The notes beneath the pieces are model-generated. The model ran no database searches and was not told the origin of the DNA. It worked only from the letters and a program-made list of their open reading frames with translations. Shown here piece after piece: positions 3,949 to 14,170 of a stretch of 64,000 nucleotides of DNA. The position numbers and the translations under genes are program-made. Position 1 is the stretch's first letter. Every line of letters starts with the position of its first letter. Source of the DNA: Bacteroides sp. (GTDB lineage Bacteria; Bacteroidota; Bacteroidia; Bacteroidales; Bacteroidaceae); assembly GCA_021203515.1 (NCBI GenBank), contig JAJQAY010000085.1, positions 18,807 to 82,806 on the forward strand. Direction: 5' to 3'.

Positions 3949-5331
3949 ATGAGCAATACACAATATGCGGTCTGCCACCTGCAACGTGGCAGCGGCAATG
4001 ACAGCGGAATGTCATGCCATATAGAAAGAAAGGATGCCAAGGGGAAGAAATATGTTCCGCTCAATGCCGATGCGAACAGGACACATCTTAATCGGGAACT
4101 GGTTTCGTTTCCTGCCGGAGTGAAGAACAGGACGGATGCCATACAATTCAGAATAGACCATGCCGGACTGCATCGCAAGGTCGGCAAGAATCAGACGAAA
4201 GCTATCCGCATCATTCTGACCGGAACACATGAACAGATGATGAAGATTACCAATGATGGCAAGCTGGATAATTGGATTGATGCCAATATGAAATGGCTAA
4301 AAGAAACTTTCGGAAGTGAGAATCTTGTTTCATGTGTGCTGCACATGGATGAGAAAACACCCCACTTGCATGCCACTATCGTACCTATTGTAACCACAGA
4401 ACGATTTCGTAAAAAACGTGAGGGCGAGAAGAAGTATGAGACGAAATCAGGGGCTCGCTTATCGGCAGATGATGTGATGCGGCGAAGCAAATTGCATGAA
4501 TATCAGAATAGCTATGCAGCCGCCATGAAAGTGTTTGGATTAGAACGAGGCATTGTCGGCTCTACGGCAAAACATTTGGCAAATTCTGAATACTACAAGC
4601 TGCAGATGAGCAAGTATGAGGAGGATATTGCCAAATTGCAGGCTGATGTTGAACAAGCAAAAGAAGGCAGAAGTACCGTCCTGTCGTGGTTTGGTAAAGG
4701 AGATTTGGCAAAGGCAAAGAAAGAACTTGCGAGTAAGGACGAGCAGATTGCCAAACTCAAAAATCAGATTAAAATGCTCATGGTAGAAAAGTCTCAGTTA
4801 CAAGAAAAACATAAAGCAGAGATTGAACAATTACGAAACGGCTACCAGAAAGAGATAGATAAGGCTATCCATCAAGCGGAATCAGCAGAACGGAAATCCA
4901 AAGAAAAGGATTCTGTAATAGACAGGCAAAACCAACGCATTGACCAGCTTGATCGCAAAGCCAACCCTCAGCGTTACCGCCTATCATCCGGGGCGGAACT
5001 GGTCCGTATCAATGTACCCAACTACCGGAATCCGTCGCTCCACATCTGGACAAGGGTCGGTGATGAGTTTTTTGAGAACATCAAATTCCAGATAGACTAT
5101 GATGCGGCTCAAAAGCATTTTAACGGCGAAATCACGGACGAGGAGTTTGTCAACGCTGTATTCGATCCGCAGGAACAGGTAAACGGAAAACAGGCGGAAT
5201 TGCTGAGCGCCGTTTTCACCCTTGCCGCCGGAGGACCGGCAGAGGTTCATGTAGGCACAGGCGGTGGCGGGTCGTCTTCGGAACTTCCGTGGGGTGAACA
5301 GAAGAAGAAAAATCCGCAACGAGGCAGATAA
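3949..5331 (+). CDS. MobV-family relaxase (plasmid recombination/mobilisation protein)
   Basis: A 460-residue relaxase of the MobV (Pre/Mob) family, which nicks and carries one strand of the element during conjugative mobilisation by a helper transfer system. The N-terminal third carries the family motifs: a start resembling SNTQYAVCHLQRG, then the metal-binding segment HMDEKTPHLHATIVPIV with the expected H/D/E and HxH residues. Residues from about 205 to 340 form a long Lys/Glu/Gln-rich coiled coil, which is usual for MobV. The C-terminus is Gly-rich. The gene follows the inverted-repeat cluster proposed as oriT and ends at a strong terminator. Confidence 0.9.
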   Translation: MSNTQYAVCHLQRGSGNDSGMSCHIERKDAKGKKYVPLNADANRTHLNRELVSFPAGVKNRTDAIQFRIDHAGLHRKVGKNQTKAIRIILTGTHEQMMKITNDGKLDNWIDANMKWLKETFGSENLVSCVLHMDEKTPHLHATIVPIVTTERFRKKREGEKKYETKSGARLSADDVMRRSKLHEYQNSYAAAMKVFGLERGIVGSTAKHLANSEYYKLQMSKYEEDIAKLQADVEQAKEGRSTVLSWFGKGDLAKAKKELASKDEQIAKLKNQIKMLMVEKSQLQEKHKAEIEQLRNGYQKEIDKAIHQAESAERKSKEKDSVIDRQNQRIDQLDRKANPQRYRLSSGAELVRINVPNYRNPSLHIWTRVGDEFFENIKFQIDYDAAQKHFNGEITDEEFVNAVFDPQEQVNGKQAELLSAVFTLAAGGPAEVHVGTGGGGSSSELPWGEQKKKNPQRGR

Positions 5332-5349
5332 AACGATGTGACAATAAAA

Positions 5350-5387
5350 CAGCGTCATACTTTCGTATTTGACGCTGCTCATTTTTT
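5350..5387 (+). terminator. Rho-independent terminator between relaxase and recombinase
   Basis: CAGCGTCA and TGACGCTG form a stem around a short spacer and are followed by TTTTTT at 5382-5387. It lies between the convergent relaxase and recombinase genes. It fits the plus strand best; the A-run on the other side (ATAAAA) is short, so bidirectional use is possible but weaker. Confidence 0.7.
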
Positions 5388-6192
5388 ACCAAGTGATAAC
5401 CTTATCAACAATCTCCTGTTGTTCGGCACTGCTACGCCGCAGATAGATACGGGTAGTTTCTATACTTTCGTGTCCCATCAAATCGGCAAGCAAGGAAATA
5501 TCATTAAACCTGTCCAGAAAGTTCTTAGCAAACCTGTGACGGAACGAGTGCGGATAGACCACTTTTTCGTTCATACCGTATTTCCGCGCATAATTTTTCA
5601 GTTGTTGGGCGATGCCTCTTGTGGTGAGACGCTGTCCGTATTGGTTAAGGAAAACATAGCCGCTGGATCGGCTTTGTTCTGACAGCCATCTGGTGGCTTC
5701 AGTGCTCAGTTGTTTCGGAATGTAGATACGACGTACCTTACCCCCTTTTGTGTAGATGTCAAAATATCCTACCCAGATATGCTCTGCTTTCAAATGTATC
5801 AGTTCGCTTATCCTTGCCCCAGTAGCGGCAAGAAAGCGTACAGCAAAATACCATGTCCGGTTTTTCTCCGTCCCTAAGTGGCTTTTAAGAAATTCGTAAT
5901 CAGCATTGCTGATTATGTTTTCAAGATAAGTGCGTTGCTGTTCCTTTATGGTTTTCATGTGTAGCCGTGACTTGCCTATATATCCCAAATATTTGTTCAA
6001 TCCCAATATGCGGAGGTTAACTGTCTTTGGCTTAAAGTTGTCTGTCAGATGGTTTTTGTAAGCTATGAGATTCCGCTTGTTCAGCTCTTTGTAATGCGTA
6101 AAATAATCTTTTACGGCATACAGGTACGCTGTAACGGTGTTCTGGGCTAAATTTCCCTGTTTTAGGAATGATTCAAAATCAGTTGTATCCAT
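5386..6192 (-). CDS. Tyrosine recombinase, probable DNA invertase
   Basis: A 268-residue tyrosine recombinase. The ATG at 6192 is chosen over the track start at 6267, because the extra 25 residues overlap the 30-bp inverted repeat and lack the family's N-terminal SAM-like pattern. The C-terminal catalytic domain shows the expected residues: Arg in TGARISELIHL, the strand pair with Lys (YTKGGKVRRIYIP), HSFRHRFAKNF (HxxR), GHESIETT (second His) and the nucleophile Tyr in TRIYLRR. Its start codon lies 67 bases from the 30-bp site at 6259-6288, the usual arrangement for Bacteroidales invertases that act on adjacent sites. It could alternatively be the integrase of the mobilisable element to its left. 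Confidence 0.85.
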   Translation of the reverse strand: MDTTDFESFLKQGNLAQNTVTAYLYAVKDYFTHYKELNKRNLIAYKNHLTDNFKPKTVNLRILGLNKYLGYIGKSRLHMKTIKEQQRTYLENIISNADYEFLKSHLGTEKNRTWYFAVRFLAATGARISELIHLKAEHIWVGYFDIYTKGGKVRRIYIPKQLSTEATRWLSEQSRSSGYVFLNQYGQRLTTRGIAQQLKNYARKYGMNEKVVYPHSFRHRFAKNFLDRFNDISLLADLMGHESIETTRIYLRRSSAEQQEIVDKVITW

Positions 6193-6258
6193 ATTGGTTC
6201 TAATTATTAGTAAAACATAAGTTGTCTGTACTAATAAGATAGACCTAGTAGTTCCGAC

Positions 6259-6288
6259 AGACGCCATTATAGGAAATCCGCCGTATCA
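6259..6288 (+). repeat. 30-bp inversion site, left copy
   Basis: This 30-base sequence contains GCCATTATAGGAAATCCGCC and is perfectly repeated in inverted orientation at 8277-8306. Similarity stops abruptly on both sides. It encodes DAIIGNPPYQ in the plus-strand frame, covering the NPPY catalytic motif of amino-methyltransferases. Confidence 0.9.
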
Positions 6289-7285
6289 AGAGGAAGGAAT
6301 AAGCACCCGTAAAGCCCCTATCTATCACCTGTTTTACGACCTTTCTTTCCGCCTGTCGGATAAAGTATCATTGATAACTCCAGGCCGTTTTTTATTCAGG
6401 GCAGGACAAACTCCCAAAGAATGGATGGATAAGATTTTAGCTGACAAACATTTTAAGGTGGTGGATTATTTTCAGAAGTCGATAGATGTATTTCCGTCTG
6501 TCGACATAAAAGGCGGTGTGGTAATTACTTATCGTGATGCTAAAACTGAATTTGAGTCAATCGGATTCTTCTCTGAATATGAAGAATTAAAAAGTATATT
6601 ACAAAAAGTGTTATCACATCAAGGATTTGTCAAAAATGAATTCAGCAATCTCATATCTTCTCAAGGCCTTTATAAATTCTCAGAGGTGGCATTTAATGAA
6701 CATCCTGAAATTTACGAAGTCCAAGGAAATGGAACCGCAGCAAAAATAACCTCAAATGCATTTGAACATCTTCCTCATATATTCCATGAAGAAGAGCCAG
6801 ATAATCCCGATATTTTCATCCGTATTTTGGGACGGTCAAAAAATCAGCGTGTCTATAAATGGATTGAAAAACGATATACTTTACCGACTGATGGATATTG
6901 TGAATCCTACAATGTTCTCGTCCCCGAAGCCAACGGAACAGGAGCAATCGGCGAAGTACTCAGCACGCCTGTAATCGGCGTGCCGGTAATCGGGCACACC
7001 GACACCTTCTTGAGCATCGGCAAGTTTACCGATGCCCAGCAAGCTGATCGGTGTATCAAATACGTCAAGACAAAATTTCTCAGATGTTTGTTAGGGACAT
7101 TGAAAGCCACGCAGCATAATCCCCGCGAGACTTGGGCAAATGTACCGATGCAAGACTTCACATTAGGAAGTGATATAAATTGGGACGTGCCTATACCTGA
7201 AATAGACAGGCAGTTGTACTCCAAATACGGGCTCTCGGACGAGGAAATCCAGTTTATTGAGCAGAATATCAAACCAATGGCATAA
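6260..7285 (+). pseudogene. Silent alternative C-terminal (target-recognition) cassette of the R-M gene
   Basis: The track starts this ORF at a TTG (6371), but the frame is open back to the inversion site, reading DAIIGNPPYQEEG from 6260. No ATG exists between the upstream stop at 6218 and 6371, so this is a headless gene end rather than an independent gene. It encodes about 340 residues. The middle has no obvious likeness to the expressed version. The C-terminus matches it closely (VPMQDFTLGSDINWD...IDRQLYSKYGLSDEE against VPLQDFTDSSDIDWS...IDRQLYRKYGLNDEE). In Eco57I-type methylases the region after NPPY carries the target-recognition domain, so this cassette should confer a different DNA specificity when joined to the R-M gene. 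Confidence 0.85.
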
Positions 7286-7291
7286 AGATGA

Positions 7292-10200
7292 TTACTCCAT
7301 CGGCTTTATCATTCTTTCGATAAAGCCGATTTCTTCATCATTCAAACCGTATTTTCGATAAAGCTGACGGTCAATGTCTTCTATCGGTTTACTCCAGTCA
7401 ATGTCGCTTGAATCGGTAAAATCTTGTAGCGGAACAAATCTAAAACTCTCTTTTCGAATATCCATAGTAGGCAGAGCTTGCAACAGTAAGAAACGAGATA
7501 CTTTTGTACATAAATATTTGTACTGATTATAGGCTTCAATTTCTGTGTCAAATTTTCCCATCGCGATATATGACTCCGTACAAACTTCACCTGGTAAAAT
7601 AATTTTGGTTGTAGCAAGAACTTTTACCTGACCGTTTTCATTACTTTCGCCCAAATGTCCTGATAAGGCTTTACCAGTTATGACATTGTATTTGTCTATA
7701 TAATCTAAGCTGACAGGAATCTCTTGTCTTGAAATGAAACCACATCCTCCGCTCGAATGCACCAATACATCTGTTTCATTTTGCTTGTTTTCAGTTCCTC
7801 GTATGTACGTCCTCAGTCCAAACGGCTTATATTGAGCTACTATTTTAGAAAGACTTTCAAAACCATTAGATAAAATGACTTTGTGTAATATAGCAACCGC
7901 TTCATTGTATCTTGGGAATATGTCATATTGAAGAAATTCGTTTAATTGTCGCTTAGATTCAATTACTGTTCCGTAAAAGGCATTTATAAACAGAGCAATG
8001 TTGCTATTGTGAGTTTTTGACCATCTGAAAAAACATACTCCGCCACTGATATTTGCAGTAGGGAAAACCGACTTCGGATTAGGGAAATCTTTAATGTAGT
8101 CAATATGTGTCTCATTGAGCATCATTTTCCTAAAATCATCCAATCCTCTTCCGCCACCATACCATTTTGCTGGCATAATCATAGAGATATAGTGTGGGTG
8201 CATATCTTTTGCAGTGCATACAAATTTATTGTATATAGGTATTGCAGCTGCTCCATTTCCACCTCCATCAACTACCTGATACGGCGGATTTCCTATAATG
8301 GCGTCTATAGTCATATGTTTGTTTTCATTTATGCCCCAAAAATTCTTGCCGTCACGTAGCGTATTTACGACTAAGTCTGAATTCTGGGATATGTTTTCAA
8401 TTAAATTTTTATAATATTCGGCATGTACTTTCGTATCGCGGAAGCCGACGAGAGTACGGCGAGTAATACTACGAGCCATAGGGGTCTTGCATACTACAAG
8501 AATATTCTGTTCAATGGTCAGATCCCATAACTGCATGGCAAAGGCATTACCTACTTCTCCATATTTTTCTTTGGCCGCTTCCAAACGATTACGGTAAATG
8601 TTATAAGCAGCGAGCAATGGATAAAGACCGCTCTTCGAGTTGATTTCCATAATCAGGCTGTCCGCTCTGAATACAGAATGCGTCACCTCCCCCTTGTCCA
8701 CAAAGCGCGGTGTTTCCAATGGTTGCTTAAACTCTTCATCCATAAAGCACCAACCTCTGAGGCAATCGCTTATGTGCATATTGACTACACGCCACGGTGT
8801 CAAAACTGTTTCCTTGTCAGGATTGCGGAATGTGTTGAATATACCAGCTATACGTTCAATGCGCTGCTCTATGGTGAACTTGTCGGCAGCACGAGTCATG
8901 GCACGGATGCGCTTCCCCGCTTCACGAAACACATCAGGCTCGTAGAAGCGCTTGAACTTGGCAAAGATGGCTTTGGTTACATCCTTAGGCATGAATTCTG
9001 TCCAAGAAGTATCGTCCACAAGATTGGCAAAGTTGTCAATGGTTATCTCTTCATCTTCGTCTTTCAGTTCTGCTCCGAATATAAGCAGCGGCATACGAAT
9101 AGAAATACCGCGTAGAATAGAAATGGCATCCTTACACTGGTTATGTCGGTTCTTCAATTCGTCCAACCTGGCTTGCTCCTCTAGAGTGCGTTCACGTTTC
9201 GGCTTCTTTTCTAGTTTTTCTTTTTCCGCATACTTCTCATTTGTAAAGCCTTGCTTGTTAACATCAATATTACCAGACTTGGGCATGGCCTTGGTCTTAC
9301 CGATGATTCCTTTCAGATTCTTGAAGTCTGCAAGATCCACATCCGTAAGTTTGAGTAACTCATCATTGTACAATGCCCCATCTTCGAAGCCACATTGCAC
9401 CACCTTTTCTATCTGAGCTTTCTTGAGTTGCCCCATCATCTTGTTTACATCATATGGCTTCATTTGCGAGCCTTCAATGGATATGATAGGACAAAAATTC
9501 AGAAAATCGCCTAAAATATTGCGGTCTTCTTCCGTTGCCTTTCCTGCCTTGGCTGAGACTTTGGCAACTTCAGCCAACATCCGCAAGGTACGGTCTGGTG
9601 CAAAGTCGAAAGCATAGCATTGCTCCTTCATACGTCCTTTATAGGTAAACGGTGTCTGCATACGGAATATGGTCTGCATATAACCTGCCGCAGATGTACT
9701 ATATGACCCTGCCATCATGAATACAGCTGTCCACGGCTTTATGCTCACACCCGTCGTCAGTCGTCCGCAGGACAGGGTGATAGTGAATGTCTCGTCAGGA
9801 TTCTTGCCTATGGCTGTATTTACCATTTGCAAAGCGTCTGCATTTTCTTCGTCTTCATCACCGTTGCCGGCCACATTGACAATCTCGAAGCAGCCGAATA
9901 TAGGATGTGCTTTCAGTTTTGCACTTAATGCACGGGCAGCCTTGACACCCGGGACTACCCAAAGCGTATGACGAAATATACTACGATACCGGTCGTTGGA
10001 ATAAGGATAAAGACTTTCCTTGTCCTCCTTGCACAACAACGACAAAAAATTATCTACATCATTTTCGTGAATGAATGTCCCGTCATCCTTTGTACGGAAG
10101 AACTCACGAAAGTTGAAAGCCTTTTCATCTTCGGAATAATCATTCATCAACGCTCCGAGGTCGTAGGTGTAGATATTGATGGCCGGAAGAGAAGCATACG

Positions 10201-11269
10201 GATTAGGGTCGCCCATGTGCAACAGGTCCCATTCAGTTTTGGCGCGTTGCTCCATGGTGTAACCCCATGTGTACGTTTCCTCTTCTGTGTAATCATCAAG
10301 CAGATTGAATGGCGTCCCTGAAAGCTTAAGCACTTTCGTGTTTACCTTGGTCAGCTCCTTAATAACAGCCTCTCCCAATTCTGTACGTGTTCCTTCGTGG
10401 GCTTCATCCACAATCAGAAAATCCCATTCGGTGGAGAACACTTCATTGTTCTTGTCAAATTTTCCACCGACCAATTGGGCGCCACGCATGTCCTGCATGG
10501 AGGCAAAATAGACATACTTGCCTCCTTTTTTCGCCAGCCGTTCAAGGGAATCGAAATCTTCTCCTTTTGTGCGGGAACCATAATGATAGTCGGTACGGTC
10601 GTAAAATATCTTACCGAAATCCTCAAACCAGCCCTCATCAACTACGGGACGGTGAGTAAGGATAATGGTGCGTCGCATATCTAAATCCCTTGCCACACGC
10701 AGGGCGCATAAGGTCTTGCCGAAACGCATTTTTGCATTCCAAAGCATTTGTGAGCCTTTCTTGAACTGCTTTTTTGTCTTGTCAATAGCAGCCTGCTGCT
10801 CTGGACGGAAGATTATAGGAGTTTGAGTATGGCTGATGTCACTTGCATTCAGACTATTCTGTCCATTCTTAACTGCATGTATCGCTTTCTTGACTGTTTC
10901 AAGGTCGCAGCAGAACCATTCATTCGCCCCTTTCACAGTATCAAACGTCTTTTTCTTAACACCTGAACGCTCCAATACGCTGTGTACCTGCTTATCGTTG
11001 AAGGAGCTAATTGTTCCACCTTTGAAAAACACGGTCATTTCCGTATGGAGCAGGGTATAGGCAATACCTGCCGTCTTCGTATATTGGTCAATACGATCAC
11101 ATGCAGCTTTGTTAAGTACCTCACTGTTGGGCAAAGGAAAGTTCCCGTCATCCTCCTCCAATGTTGTTTCACCCACTTTCAGACAGTCCTTATGCCATTC
11201 ATCGGAAATGGCAAAGACATATATCAGTCTGGATTTTAAGCTGGTTTCAAATGTTGCCATATCATACAA
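7292..11269 (-). CDS. GIY-YIG-like nuclease/helicase/methylase restriction-modification protein
   Basis: A 1325-residue R-M protein. Residues about 14-125 (YVFAISDEWHKDCLKVGETT...) resemble a T5orf172/GIY-YIG nuclease domain. From about 155 a superfamily-2 helicase follows: Q-motif-like FRPEQQAAI, Walker A AKMRFGKT (near 180), DEAH (289-292) and motif VI-like QTIFRMQTP. The catalytic NPPY of an amino-methyltransferase is at 994-997, and the remaining 328 residues would be the target-recognition region. I see no SAM-binding motif I before NPPY; that motif appears in the 332-aa partner encoded three bases upstream. NPPY coincides exactly with the 30-bp inversion site, so the last quarter of the protein is exchangeable. 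It is the last gene of the operon. Confidence 0.85.
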   Translation of the reverse strand: MYDMATFETSLKSRLIYVFAISDEWHKDCLKVGETTLEEDDGNFPLPNSEVLNKAACDRIDQYTKTAGIAYTLLHTEMTVFFKGGTISSFNDKQVHSVLERSGVKKKTFDTVKGANEWFCCDLETVKKAIHAVKNGQNSLNASDISHTQTPIIFRPEQQAAIDKTKKQFKKGSQMLWNAKMRFGKTLCALRVARDLDMRRTIILTHRPVVDEGWFEDFGKIFYDRTDYHYGSRTKGEDFDSLERLAKKGGKYVYFASMQDMRGAQLVGGKFDKNNEVFSTEWDFLIVDEAHEGTRTELGEAVIKELTKVNTKVLKLSGTPFNLLDDYTEEETYTWGYTMEQRAKTEWDLLHMGDPNPYASLPAINIYTYDLGALMNDYSEDEKAFNFREFFRTKDDGTFIHENDVDNFLSLLCKEDKESLYPYSNDRYRSIFRHTLWVVPGVKAARALSAKLKAHPIFGCFEIVNVAGNGDEDEENADALQMVNTAIGKNPDETFTITLSCGRLTTGVSIKPWTAVFMMAGSYSTSAAGYMQTIFRMQTPFTYKGRMKEQCYAFDFAPDRTLRMLAEVAKVSAKAGKATEEDRNILGDFLNFCPIISIEGSQMKPYDVNKMMGQLKKAQIEKVVQCGFEDGALYNDELLKLTDVDLADFKNLKGIIGKTKAMPKSGNIDVNKQGFTNEKYAEKEKLEKKPKRERTLEEQARLDELKNRHNQCKDAISILRGISIRMPLLIFGAELKDEDEEITIDNFANLVDDTSWTEFMPKDVTKAIFAKFKRFYEPDVFREAGKRIRAMTRAADKFTIEQRIERIAGIFNTFRNPDKETVLTPWRVVNMHISDCLRGWCFMDEEFKQPLETPRFVDKGEVTHSVFRADSLIMEINSKSGLYPLLAAYNIYRNRLEAAKEKYGEVGNAFAMQLWDLTIEQNILVVCKTPMARSITRRTLVGFRDTKVHAEYYKNLIENISQNSDLVVNTLRDGKNFWGINENKHMTIDAIIGNPPYQVVDGGGNGAAAIPIYNKFVCTAKDMHPHYISMIMPAKWYGGGRGLDDFRKMMLNETHIDYIKDFPNPKSVFPTANISGGVCFFRWSKTHNSNIALFINAFYGTVIESKRQLNEFLQYDIFPRYNEAVAILHKVILSNGFESLSKIVAQYKPFGLRTYIRGTENKQNETDVLVHSSGGCGFISRQEIPVSLDYIDKYNVITGKALSGHLGESNENGQVKVLATTKIILPGEVCTESYIAMGKFDTEIEAYNQYKYLCTKVSRFLLLQALPTMDIRKESFRFVPLQDFTDSSDIDWSKPIEDIDRQLYRKYGLNDEEIGFIERMIKPME
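8277..8306 (-). repeat. 30-bp inversion site, right copy (inside the R-M gene)
   Basis: This is the perfect reverse complement of 6259-6288, lying inside the coding sequence of the R-M gene and encoding the same DAIIGNPPYQ peptide in the same frame relative to the site. Recombination between the two copies therefore preserves the reading frame. Confidence 0.9.
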
Positions 11270-11272
11270 CTT

Positions 11273-12271
11273 TTATTTTATCAGGTCTATAAACCTTATT
11301 TTTCTGTTATTCTCTCCCGTTTTGGGGTCTTTCAATCCCCAGTCCCTTATTAGGCAGTAAATCCCGTTATGGTTTCTGAATCCTCCATCACGACATCCTG
11401 AACAATATTCAACATTTTCAGTCGCTCCGAATAAGTCTCGCGTCATGACTTTTACACCATTCTTGCAACTGTCCGGAACAACTCCTTTAAGTCCGTCCAT
11501 TTGCCAGACATTCCAGGAAATGATATAGGCTATATAAAGCAGGGACTTTGCCAACGGCATTTTTCCAAATTTTGCATAATAGTATTCCGCAAAGGAAACT
11601 AGCAGAGCCTCACGAGTCAAAAGCAAATTGTCTCCCTGCCATTCATATGCATATATGTTCTTATAGGCTTCCTGCGCCATATCAAGCCATTCACCACTTG
11701 TTCCGGTGTTTTCGCTGACTACACGCAGTTTCCGGTCGAGCATTCCGATGCGTTGATTCAATTCTATCGGAAGCCCGGTCGTAGTATCATAACGGCTGAC
11801 GAGGTAAGGGGCTTCACCGCAAGTGATTTCCATCCTTGTCGCCCGGACATATGACTTCCATGTCTTGTTATTCGGGAAAGTAATTCTGTCGGGATTGGCC
11901 ATCCATGTATGCTGTGTATCGTCAACTGTGTTGAATACATCTTTCCTTCCGAACCAAGCCTCGTCTACAAGATTGTTTTGGGCATTACAAACCCATGACG
12001 GAGTAAATACCTCTGCCATTTCCTTTGTCCGCTCCGTCTGTTCGTCCTTACTTTTTAATGCACGCGGGCGGATCACCATTCCGTTTTCGCCAATAATATG
12101 TTCAACAGTTATGGCATCATGATACAGGAAACCCTCGCCTCTATGAGCATACGAATCCGTTGCCCAAAAGATGTTCCGTCCTGTTGTATGGTCTTTGAGT
12201 AAAGTATCCAATACTTCGGGGTAAAGATTGAATATCTCCGTTTCGTTTATATCAATATTTATGTCTGCCAT
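11273..12271 (-). CDS. R-M 'subunit M' carrying the SAM-binding half of a methyltransferase
   Basis: A 332-residue protein of the kind annotated as restriction endonuclease subunit M. Residues 85-94 (MAEVFTPSWV) resemble methyltransferase motif X; 149-156 (ITCGEAPY) resemble SAM-binding motif I; and YEWQGDNLL near 209-217 resembles the following acidic and strand motifs. It has no NPPY, which instead lies in the downstream 1325-residue protein. A Cys cluster (CSGCRDGGFRNHNGIYC) near residues 285-305 could bind zinc. It starts three bases after the AbiEii stop and ends three bases before the helicase-methylase gene, so the genes are surely co-transcribed. My inference is that the two proteins form one split methyltransferase. 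Confidence 0.75.
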   Translation of the reverse strand: MADINIDINETEIFNLYPEVLDTLLKDHTTGRNIFWATDSYAHRGEGFLYHDAITVEHIIGENGMVIRPRALKSKDEQTERTKEMAEVFTPSWVCNAQNNLVDEAWFGRKDVFNTVDDTQHTWMANPDRITFPNNKTWKSYVRATRMEITCGEAPYLVSRYDTTTGLPIELNQRIGMLDRKLRVVSENTGTSGEWLDMAQEAYKNIYAYEWQGDNLLLTREALLVSFAEYYYAKFGKMPLAKSLLYIAYIISWNVWQMDGLKGVVPDSCKNGVKVMTRDLFGATENVEYCSGCRDGGFRNHNGIYCLIRDWGLKDPKTGENNRKIRFIDLIK

Positions 12272-12274
12272 ACG

Positions 12275-13287
12275 TCAACGATTATTTCCCCATTCCAATG
12301 TCCTAAATCTGTTCTGCAACTCACTCAATCGTTCCATAATCTCATCGAAAGAAGGTGCATTGGCATAGATGAAGCCGATTTGCATCTGCTTATAGTCGTC
12401 ACGCAAAACATCTTCGATGCTTTCAGGAGGTAGAAACGATATTGTGTGTGGAAGATGACTCGTATAGTCCAATCCACTCCATGCCGTGAACTTTTTACGA
12501 TGAGTCACAATGTCCTCGTATAATTGTACATCCTGCATTGCTTCCATCGCAAACGGTTTATCCATCATCCTTACAATGTCATACATGTGCCGTGTGATAC
12601 GTTCGATATGCGTACAGCCATTGGGACGGTTAAACTCTTCATGCAAAAGAAAAACCTTTTCCAAGAATGTTCGTCCTGGCACTACGGTAGGAACAGTGAA
12701 TATAGGTAATGAGAACTCTTCACCTGGATAAGCCTCTTCTATCATAGAACGCATTTCCACATCTTCTGACGGTTCCATGAGTGAACGACAACTTATCTCA
12801 ACTTTGACTCGCTCGGGTATATATTGCATTTTCGTTTGCAGCACTGAATTATACTCGATAAACAGGACTACAGGGTCAAGGTCACTGACAGATGTTTCCG
12901 GAACTATGACCTTACAGCTCTCTGATAGCCCAAACTCTTTTATTCTATTCTCAACATCGAGCGCGAAAGAGCCATCTATGAACTTCTTGGAGTCTTTCCG
13001 CAACTTAGTCCGTTGACTTTTAGTCTCAATATTTGTAAAGCCGAGATATTGGGGATCTATTGCAAGGTCAATATCTTCCGAAAACCGTTCTATTAATCCC
13101 CAACCTTTGCTAAGGCTTGTTCCTCCCTTGAATACAAAAGCCGTAGCGTACGGCAAGGAAATATTGCACGTAACACTATACTGACCCAATAGTCCTTCTC
13201 TACGGCATTGTCCACAATCCCTTTACCTTCGGCCACATTAGCCAAAATAGTAAGTTGTTCTTCTTTTGTAAGTTTAGTAAAATTCAT
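12275..13287 (-). pseudogene. AbiEii-family nucleotidyltransferase toxin, frameshifted
   Basis: Two overlapping frames make up one protein of the AbiEii/AbiGii family (predicted nucleotidyltransferase toxins of type IV abortive-infection pairs). The first frame gives MNFTKLTKEEQL...VEKDYWVSIVLRAIF, and the second continues SLPYATAFVFKGGTSLSKGW and SEDIDLAI, the GGTSLSK and DIDLAI nucleotidyltransferase motifs. A single missing T in a T-run near 13155 separates them; restoring it gives about 337 residues. The start ATG overlaps the stop of the upstream antitoxin gene by four bases. The break may be a sequencing error, since many genes here have similar one-base losses. If real, the toxin is truncated before its catalytic motifs. 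Confidence 0.8.
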
Positions 13288-13880
13288 AATGCAAGTCTTT
13301 GTTTAATCCATTGCGGAGCAATGCTGTAATCGTATTTGATTTCATTAGGACTGCCATATTTTTCAATGGCTTGTTTTATGATAGCAACCTGTTCATCGGT
13401 TACTCCATCTTTCCCTAACTCTTTCATGGCAGCGACTATAAGTGGGAACAAGTCTGTCTTATAGGCAAAATTGCGGGGTACGCTGCGCTTGAATATGATT
13501 TTACGGTTCCCGATAGTAAGTTCCCTTGCAGTGGCATCTGTCAAATAGACCGCATTCATCGTAACCTGTGTGGAAAGTCCTAATTTGTTCAATGCAGTCA
13601 ATCCGTTGGGAATAATGCGTGCTTTATCCTTTTCAGCAACAGCATAAGCGATTTCCTCTATAGAGGGTCGAAGTATTCCGAACTTATTTCGTGACGGATA
13701 TAAATATATGCCTTGCGAGAGGCGTATAAGAACACCTTCCTTTTCTAATCTGGAAAGGGCACGAGTAACCAACCCGTCATTATTTAGATAGGCAAAATCC
13801 TGAACCATATAGAGTTTGTTTGGTCCATTGCTTTCAATAGTATTGCGTATCTCTTTTGTTAGTATTACTCCCATGATCAT
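13284..13880 (-). CDS. AbiEi-type antitoxin / transcriptional regulator (DUF6088)
   Basis: A protein of about 198 residues resembling DUF6088/AbiEi antitoxins. An N-terminal winged helix-turn-helix (LTKEIRNTIE...LVTRALSRLEKEGVLIRLSQGIYLYP) is followed by an AbiEi-like domain (RIIPNGLTALNKLGLSTQ...VYLTDATAREL). The ATG at 13880 (or 13874) is preferred to the track start, because a promoter-like TACCTTTG lies just upstream at 13895-13902. AbiEi proteins repress their own operon and counter the AbiEii toxin; here the operon continues into the R-M genes, so this protein may set expression of all four. It overlaps the toxin start by four bases. Confidence 0.8.
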   Translation of the reverse strand: MIMGVILTKEIRNTIESNGPNKLYMVQDFAYLNNDGLVTRALSRLEKEGVLIRLSQGIYLYPSRNKFGILRPSIEEIAYAVAEKDKARIIPNGLTALNKLGLSTQVTMNAVYLTDATARELTIGNRKIIFKRSVPRNFAYKTDLFPLIVAAMKELGKDGVTDEQVAIIKQAIEKYGSPNEIKYDYSIAPQWIKQRLAL

Positions 13881-13894
13881 TAATAATCTGAGTG

Positions 13895-13902
13895 CAAAGG
13901 TA
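13895..13902 (-). promoter_or_regulatory. -7 box of the AbiE/R-M operon promoter
   Basis: TACCTTTG on the minus strand fits TAnnTTTG and lies 15 bases before the AbiEi ATG at 13880, implying a very short leader. No exact -33 TTTG is visible. Confidence 0.5.
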
Positions 13903-14170
13903 CAATATTCCCTCCAGCTCAGCAATAAAATGTCCGAAAATCTTAAAGAAAATCGGACTTTATAAAATGTTTGCGATTAGATTGCTGTTTGGTTTAAGAG
14001 TAAAAATATTGATAACAACAAGCTATTGTAGCTTGAGATTAATTTTGGAAAACCAACAAGAAGTGGGAACTTTACGGTATCATATAAAGATACAGATAGT
14101 ATATATTAGTTATATATCAGATTGATATAAACTACACTTCGGTTCAAACGTGGACCTGCGTGTCGTAATC

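Follow-up and report, generated by a model that had tools for sequence, protein, structure and literature searches.

We analysed a restriction-modification locus in a 64,000-nucleotide stretch of Bacteroides sp. DNA (GenBank assembly GCA_021203515.1, contig JAJQAY010000085.1, positions 18,807 to 82,806; hereafter the window, in whose own numbering all of its coordinates are given), where a small protein, M1, is encoded next to a large protein with nuclease, helicase and methyltransferase parts. An earlier examination of the window's letters alone (the sequence-only reading) had proposed that one amino-methyltransferase is split over these two proteins. Both open reading frames (ORFs) are intact and lie in the same frame of the minus strand. 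The M1 gene ends in TAA and a TTG codon (11269) begins three bases later; the spacing of three bases given previously holds if this TTG is the start, but the large gene more likely starts at the ATG at 11260, which leaves a gap of 12 nt and a protein of 1322 rather than 1325 residues. The features of the two genes are as follows.

11273..12271, minus strand: M1, 332 amino acids (aa), the putative S-adenosylmethionine (SAM)-binding half; PADLOC MTase_II PDLC03390, E 4e-116; profile match to the canonical M1 family
7292..11260, minus strand: large protein, 1322 aa if it starts at the likely ATG and 1325 aa if at TTG 11269, comprising the nuclease-helicase (H) and modules P and C
10859..11260, minus strand: GIY-YIG-like (T5orf172-like) N-terminal domain; weak Pfam match, E 0.19; homologous to the DrdVI R chain by alignment
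10307..10810, minus strand: ResIII/DEAD helicase core, E 1.7e-14
8306..8983 (limits approximate), minus strand: P module, a predicted pseudo-SAM half, homologous to M1, with degenerate motifs
8621..8650 (residues 871-880), minus strand: degenerate motif I, MEINSKSGLY, in which a Lys and a Gly are nearly invariant
7292..8306, minus strand: C module, catalytic motif IV and target-recognition region
8279..8290, minus strand: NPPY (motif IV), residues 991-994 of the large protein

The M1 of the window reads EVFTP at residues 87-91 (motif X), MEITCGEAPY at 147-156 (motif I), YAYEWQGDN at 207-215 (motif II) and QMDGL at 257-261 (motif III), followed by C-x2-C...H...IRDW. A Pfam search found no domain in this protein, and the motifs were assigned through a family of shorter M1 proteins (~230 aa) with textbook motifs: GEVFT (X), LEPACGTGNFL (I), YGVDIL (II) and GDAL (III). 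Profile-profile alignment of the two families (probability 98.9, E 1.9e-17) places VFTP at motif X and MEITCGEAPY at motif I, as the sequence-only reading had recognised, and it allowed motifs II and III to be assigned. Across the M1 modules the Gly of motif I is conserved, the motif II acid is D or E in 132/132 and the motif III D is found in 117/127. None of 138 M1 modules contains NPPY, in agreement with the earlier statement that the small protein lacks it.

The large protein carries the NPPY, the helicase and the GIY-YIG-like domain previously ascribed to it. In addition to the ResIII and weak T5orf172 matches, Pfam returned an Eco57I domain (E 7.4e-29), and PADLOC returned REase_MTase_IIG (PDLC03626, E 2e-61). 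The N-terminal domain contains the residues IYVFAI...LKVGETT...RIDQYTKTAGI...DKQVHSVL, and the N-terminal part is homologous to the DrdVI nuclease-helicase chain (29% over 674 positions, E 4e-73). Between the helicase and C lies P, whose MEINSKSGLY aligns to LEPACGNGNF of M1 (P-M1 homology, probability 96.4, E 1.3e-9); the P-C family profile also aligns weakly to PglX, with the KSG site on LDPACGSGHIL. The sequence-only reading had seen no clear motif I in the large protein and would have counted a clear SAM-binding motif there against the split; it was right in substance, but a motif I homologue is present and is degenerate across the family. A Lys replaces the first Gly of motif I in 141 of 142 P modules. 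In the window this residue is K876 of the large protein (8633-8635). The lone Gly exception, L118 (Selenomonadaceae contig, 514-2375), is a single-chain enzyme wrongly counted as P, with canonical motifs of its own (FFEPAAGEGAF, CEIQ and EGDAL) before NPPY; it is frameshifted and has no M1. The motif II acid is found in 0 of the 141 P modules scored, motif III was not recognised in P, and the only columns of the P-C alignment that are invariant ahead of the NPPY region are this Lys and motif I's final Gly. A Lys so nearly invariant would indicate that P has been kept for a purpose apart from canonical SAM binding, and the Gly-to-Lys change together with the lost motif II acid suggests that P has given up holding SAM; its most likely role is that of a docking pseudo-half.

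P does retain an acidic start and the final Gly in motif I, as well as the TP of motif X, which would suit a large protein that is a complete methyltransferase with a modified SAM pocket of its own (EINSKSG), M1 being a regulatory paralogue such as a SAM sensor or DNA-binding partner. The loss of the motif II acid throughout and the unrecognised motif III speak against this, as does the distribution of the modules among related loci. Module searches over ~145 loci (a few duplicate genomes are within the counts) found M1 in ~130 and the two-gene pattern in ~130 homologous loci from several phyla, and the pattern is therefore not due to chance. M1 accompanies every P-C homologue for which flanks are available. 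All P-C loci that lack it are truncated by a contig end or by the limit of the fetched sequence, and L117 and L138 have their M1 on the downstream side. With hyphens joining modules on one chain, the arrangement M1 + H-P-C occurs in 62 loci and the window, and M1 + P-C + H in 24, with 18 more, most of which are truncated by the limit of the fetched sequence or have a helicase that has diverged too far for the query to find; M1-C + H-P occurs in nine loci and once in the other order, and M1 + C + H-P in eight. M1 and C are joined in a single chain in L179, L183-L188, L190, L192 and L194, where P stays on the chain of the helicase. In L180, L181, L182, L189, L191, L193 and L195 (the class of G731, a Selenomonadaceae contig) there are three pieces, M1, C and helicase-P, and NPPY starts the separate C protein. 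L200 encodes H-P-M1-C as a single chain cut by the contig end.

Natural M1-C fusions in canonical order were thus found in ~12 bacterial genomes, usually with P on the helicase chain, and in one phage. Fusobacterium phage FNU4 (L177, 3200-5089) encodes M1-C alone as a single chain with no P match, and the Pfam Eco57I model runs unbroken over its M1-C junction (profile 9-171, E 5e-25). In Tenacibaculum phage PTm1 (L178, 3520-6418), P, C and M1 are separate genes. That the fusions join M1 rather than P to C, that FNU4 has no P match and that P is retained on helicase chains without C make a complete large protein unlikely; on the simplest reading of these architectures, catalysis would fall to M1 together with C, and P would be a surplus, altered copy kept alongside the helicase or C.

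Two further explanations bear on the same observations. The M1-P homology would also fit a pair of paralogous methyltransferases, either with a genuine active site in each or, as in METTL3/METTL14, with one catalytic and one supportive member. In METTL3/METTL14 one chain holds both the SAM and the catalytic motifs and the other neither, whereas here the motif sets are lost reciprocally between the chains, and we rejected such a pair as very improbable. Decay or an assembly artefact, in which a stop broke a single gene and left a non-functional pair, would account for two genes that share a frame and are separated by one stop. It is scarcely credible: the arrangement recurs in ~130 loci, in many of which the two genes overlap out of frame, and the M1-M2 pairs of DrdVI and MaeIV are active, which refutes a broken single gene at the level of the family.

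We consider it highly probable that the locus encodes a DrdVI-type split N6-methyladenine (m6A) restriction-modification enzyme, in which M1 is the SAM half, C provides motif IV and the target-recognition domain (TRD), and P is a docking pseudo-half. M1 would supply motifs X, I, II and III and bind SAM, the C-terminal part of the large protein would supply NPPY and the TRD, and the two would together form one canonical Eco57I/gamma-type adenine methyltransferase with a composite active site, for which we infer that catalysis needs both chains. P, the degenerate copy of the SAM half between helicase and C, would tie this methyltransferase to the nuclease-helicase. The proposed split over two chains is thus upheld by reciprocal motif loss, by complete co-occurrence where flanks permit, by the natural M1-C fusions and by the precedent of DrdVI and MaeIV. 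The large protein does carry the motif IV and target-recognition half, but it also has an N-terminal methyltransferase half of its own, the pseudo-half.

Several observations weigh against this assignment. The motif III region of window-type M1 proteins is QMDGL and not GDAL, and we found no test of either chain alone. Searches of PDB sequences with the single proteins gave chance matches only. The AlphaFold model of the window M1 has a pLDDT of 88.2 and a pTM of 0.89; its best fold matches are adenine methyltransferases (PglX, LlaGI, BrxX and DrdV), none of them significant (best E 0.43), which would be no surprise for half a domain. M1 and P-C of locus L034 were modelled as one chain by reading through the stop, a modelling device and not a natural protein. 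In the fused M1-M2 alignment of all members, M2 was misplaced onto M1 because the halves are homologous, and in window-type rows the helicase was placed onto the end of M1; a subset gave a clean, block-diagonal alignment. The fused model (pLDDT 82.4, pTM 0.68) gave no readable inter-chain confidence. Its best Foldseek matches in the PDB were CamA and PglX, with M.TaqI further down; they would be compatible with C packing on P or on M1, and the long alignments to M.TaqI and CamA are compatible with a full P-C fold, as expected of a complete large protein.

The sequence-only reading had placed both restriction and target choice in an exchangeable partner of M1. Co-inheritance was measured as the correlation (rho) of pairwise module distances with those of M1. 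Among 62 window-type loci, rho was 0.78 for the helicase, 0.77 for P, 0.07 for C and 0.10 for the TRD, so that of P and C, which sit on one chain, only P tracks M1. Sliding 40-residue windows over 63 window-type loci gave rho of 0.66 at residues 941-980, 0.58 at 961-1000, 0.20 at 981-1020 and 0.02 at 1001-1040, with the break at NPPY. Saturation was rejected as the cause of this drop, the more divergent residues 941-980 (median distance 0.72) still giving 0.66. In 35 loci of the DrdVI-type set rho falls gradually, from 0.7 to 0.35 to 0, and the sharp break at NPPY is therefore claimed for the window type and not for the whole family. Judged by these distances, the exchangeable part is C, from NPPY onward, and not the whole large protein. 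Target choice is accordingly exchanged as had been supposed (rho 0.02-0.1 from NPPY onward), but restriction is not, the nuclease-helicase and P being co-inherited with M1 (rho 0.77-0.78).

The window also carries a second copy of C, within a 2-kb segment (6259-8306) that holds the present C and the second C in opposite orientation between the arms of a 30-bp perfect inverted repeat, and that adjoins a tyrosine recombinase gene.

8277..8306: right arm of this repeat (30 bp, perfect), which encodes DAIIGNPPYQ
6259..6288: left arm of the repeat, DAIIGNPPYQ in opposite orientation
6289..7285, plus strand: second C cassette, an alternative NPPY/TRD half whose frame runs on without a stop from the repeat into ORF 6371-7285
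5386..6267, minus strand: tyrosine recombinase, likely an invertase; Phage_integrase E 5e-26, XerA/C/D-like

The second cassette has no N-terminal half of its own. The segment looks invertible, and inversion at the repeat would replace everything after NPPYQ. None of 80 related loci has a second GNPPY site of this inverted-cassette kind, the window being the only case, and among open-licence papers we found none on such an arrangement in Type IIG-like systems. M1, P and the nuclease-helicase would form a constant core, with C swapped as a cassette at NPPY and, in the window, probably also through recombinase-driven inversion. We lean slightly towards a mix-and-match system, in which a modular active site combines a constant SAM subunit, a dead-copy adaptor on the nuclease-helicase and a catalytic/TRD cassette swapped at the NPPY codons by evolution and, here, by a DNA invertase.

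An AbiEi/AbiEii-type toxin-antitoxin pair (12275-13925) lies immediately upstream of M1 and, like it, on the minus strand; three bases separate the end of the AbiEii gene from the start of M1, and the four genes therefore look like one operon. Near the recombinase, a 460-aa ORF (3949-5331, plus strand) resembles a plasmid mobilisation/relaxase protein from its sequence alone, which suggests that the whole stretch lies on a mobile element.

These results give a sequence-level account of why split methylases would require two genes, and they make trans-complementation of one active site directly testable. They also name the pseudo-half P, which annotators could take for a working SAM domain. Recognition cassettes exchanged at the catalytic motif in window-type loci suggest that new restriction specificities might be obtained by cassette exchange, leaving the nuclease, the helicase and the SAM subunit untouched.

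The split methylase as such is already known. In the passages that describe them, M1-2.DrdVI was cloned and expressed and makes m6A at GCAGCC (PMC6430315), M1-M2.MaeIV makes m6A at GCACY as a cloned pair (activity of both in PMC6430315 and PMC10113651), and DrdVI and MaeIV are New England Biolabs' "split methylases"; those passages do not name the SAM-binding chain or describe a pseudo-half. Plasmid pDrdVI of Deinococcus wulumuqiensis NEB 479 encodes the same three parts (M1.DrdVI, M2.DrdVI and R), and the likeness described here rests on its sequences, MaeIV being known here by its description. As in the window, a separate M1 with motifs X-I-II-III accompanies an M2 with a Lys-type motif I, NPPY and a TRD, and a GIY-YIG-like helicase; M1.DrdVI has the canonical LEPACGSGNF and M2.DrdVI has LDPCTKSGVF with the same Lys. 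The window large protein is 37% identical to M2.DrdVI over 354 positions (E 2e-72; EINSKSG against CTKSG), and the direct BLASTP match between the M1 proteins is weak (E 0.002). The window has, like DrdVI, an M1 without motif IV, a Lys-type M2 part with NPPY and TRD, and a nuclease-helicase; the two differ in that the nuclease-helicase and M2 are separate genes in DrdVI and one chain in the window, in the length of M1 (212 aa against 332 aa) and in the second C module, of which none was found at pDrdVI. In Btr188ORF1790/1760 of Bibersteinia trehalosi, the part of PMC4996451 concerned describes M1 and M2 similarity within one broken frame, inactive in those strains, rather than two genes.

Type ISP enzymes (LlaBIII, LlaGI) and Type IIG enzymes (Eco57I, MmeI) resemble the window in having an Eco57I-type methyltransferase and TRD on one chain, with a helicase as well in Type ISP, but they carry a SAM motif themselves and do not depend on an M1; the window's P has a degenerate motif I and no motif II acid. 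Type ISP enzymes also have a different nuclease domain. A Type I (M2S) system was rejected, domain-library searches giving no match of the operon proteins to HsdM or HsdS and the large chain having an Eco57I-type domain and TRD. PglX/BrxX of BREX systems is the nearest sequence match of P-C with a solved structure, motifs I, II and IV aligning weakly, but PglX is a single chain with a canonical motif I and a motif II acid. Inversions in PglX change target recognition through site-specific recombination. Target recognition is likewise altered by site-specific recombination in phase-variable Type I hsdS, in the account given in PMC5903667. Unlike the inversions of hsdS and PglX, the putative crossover site in the window consists of codons for an adenine methyltransferase's catalytic motif.
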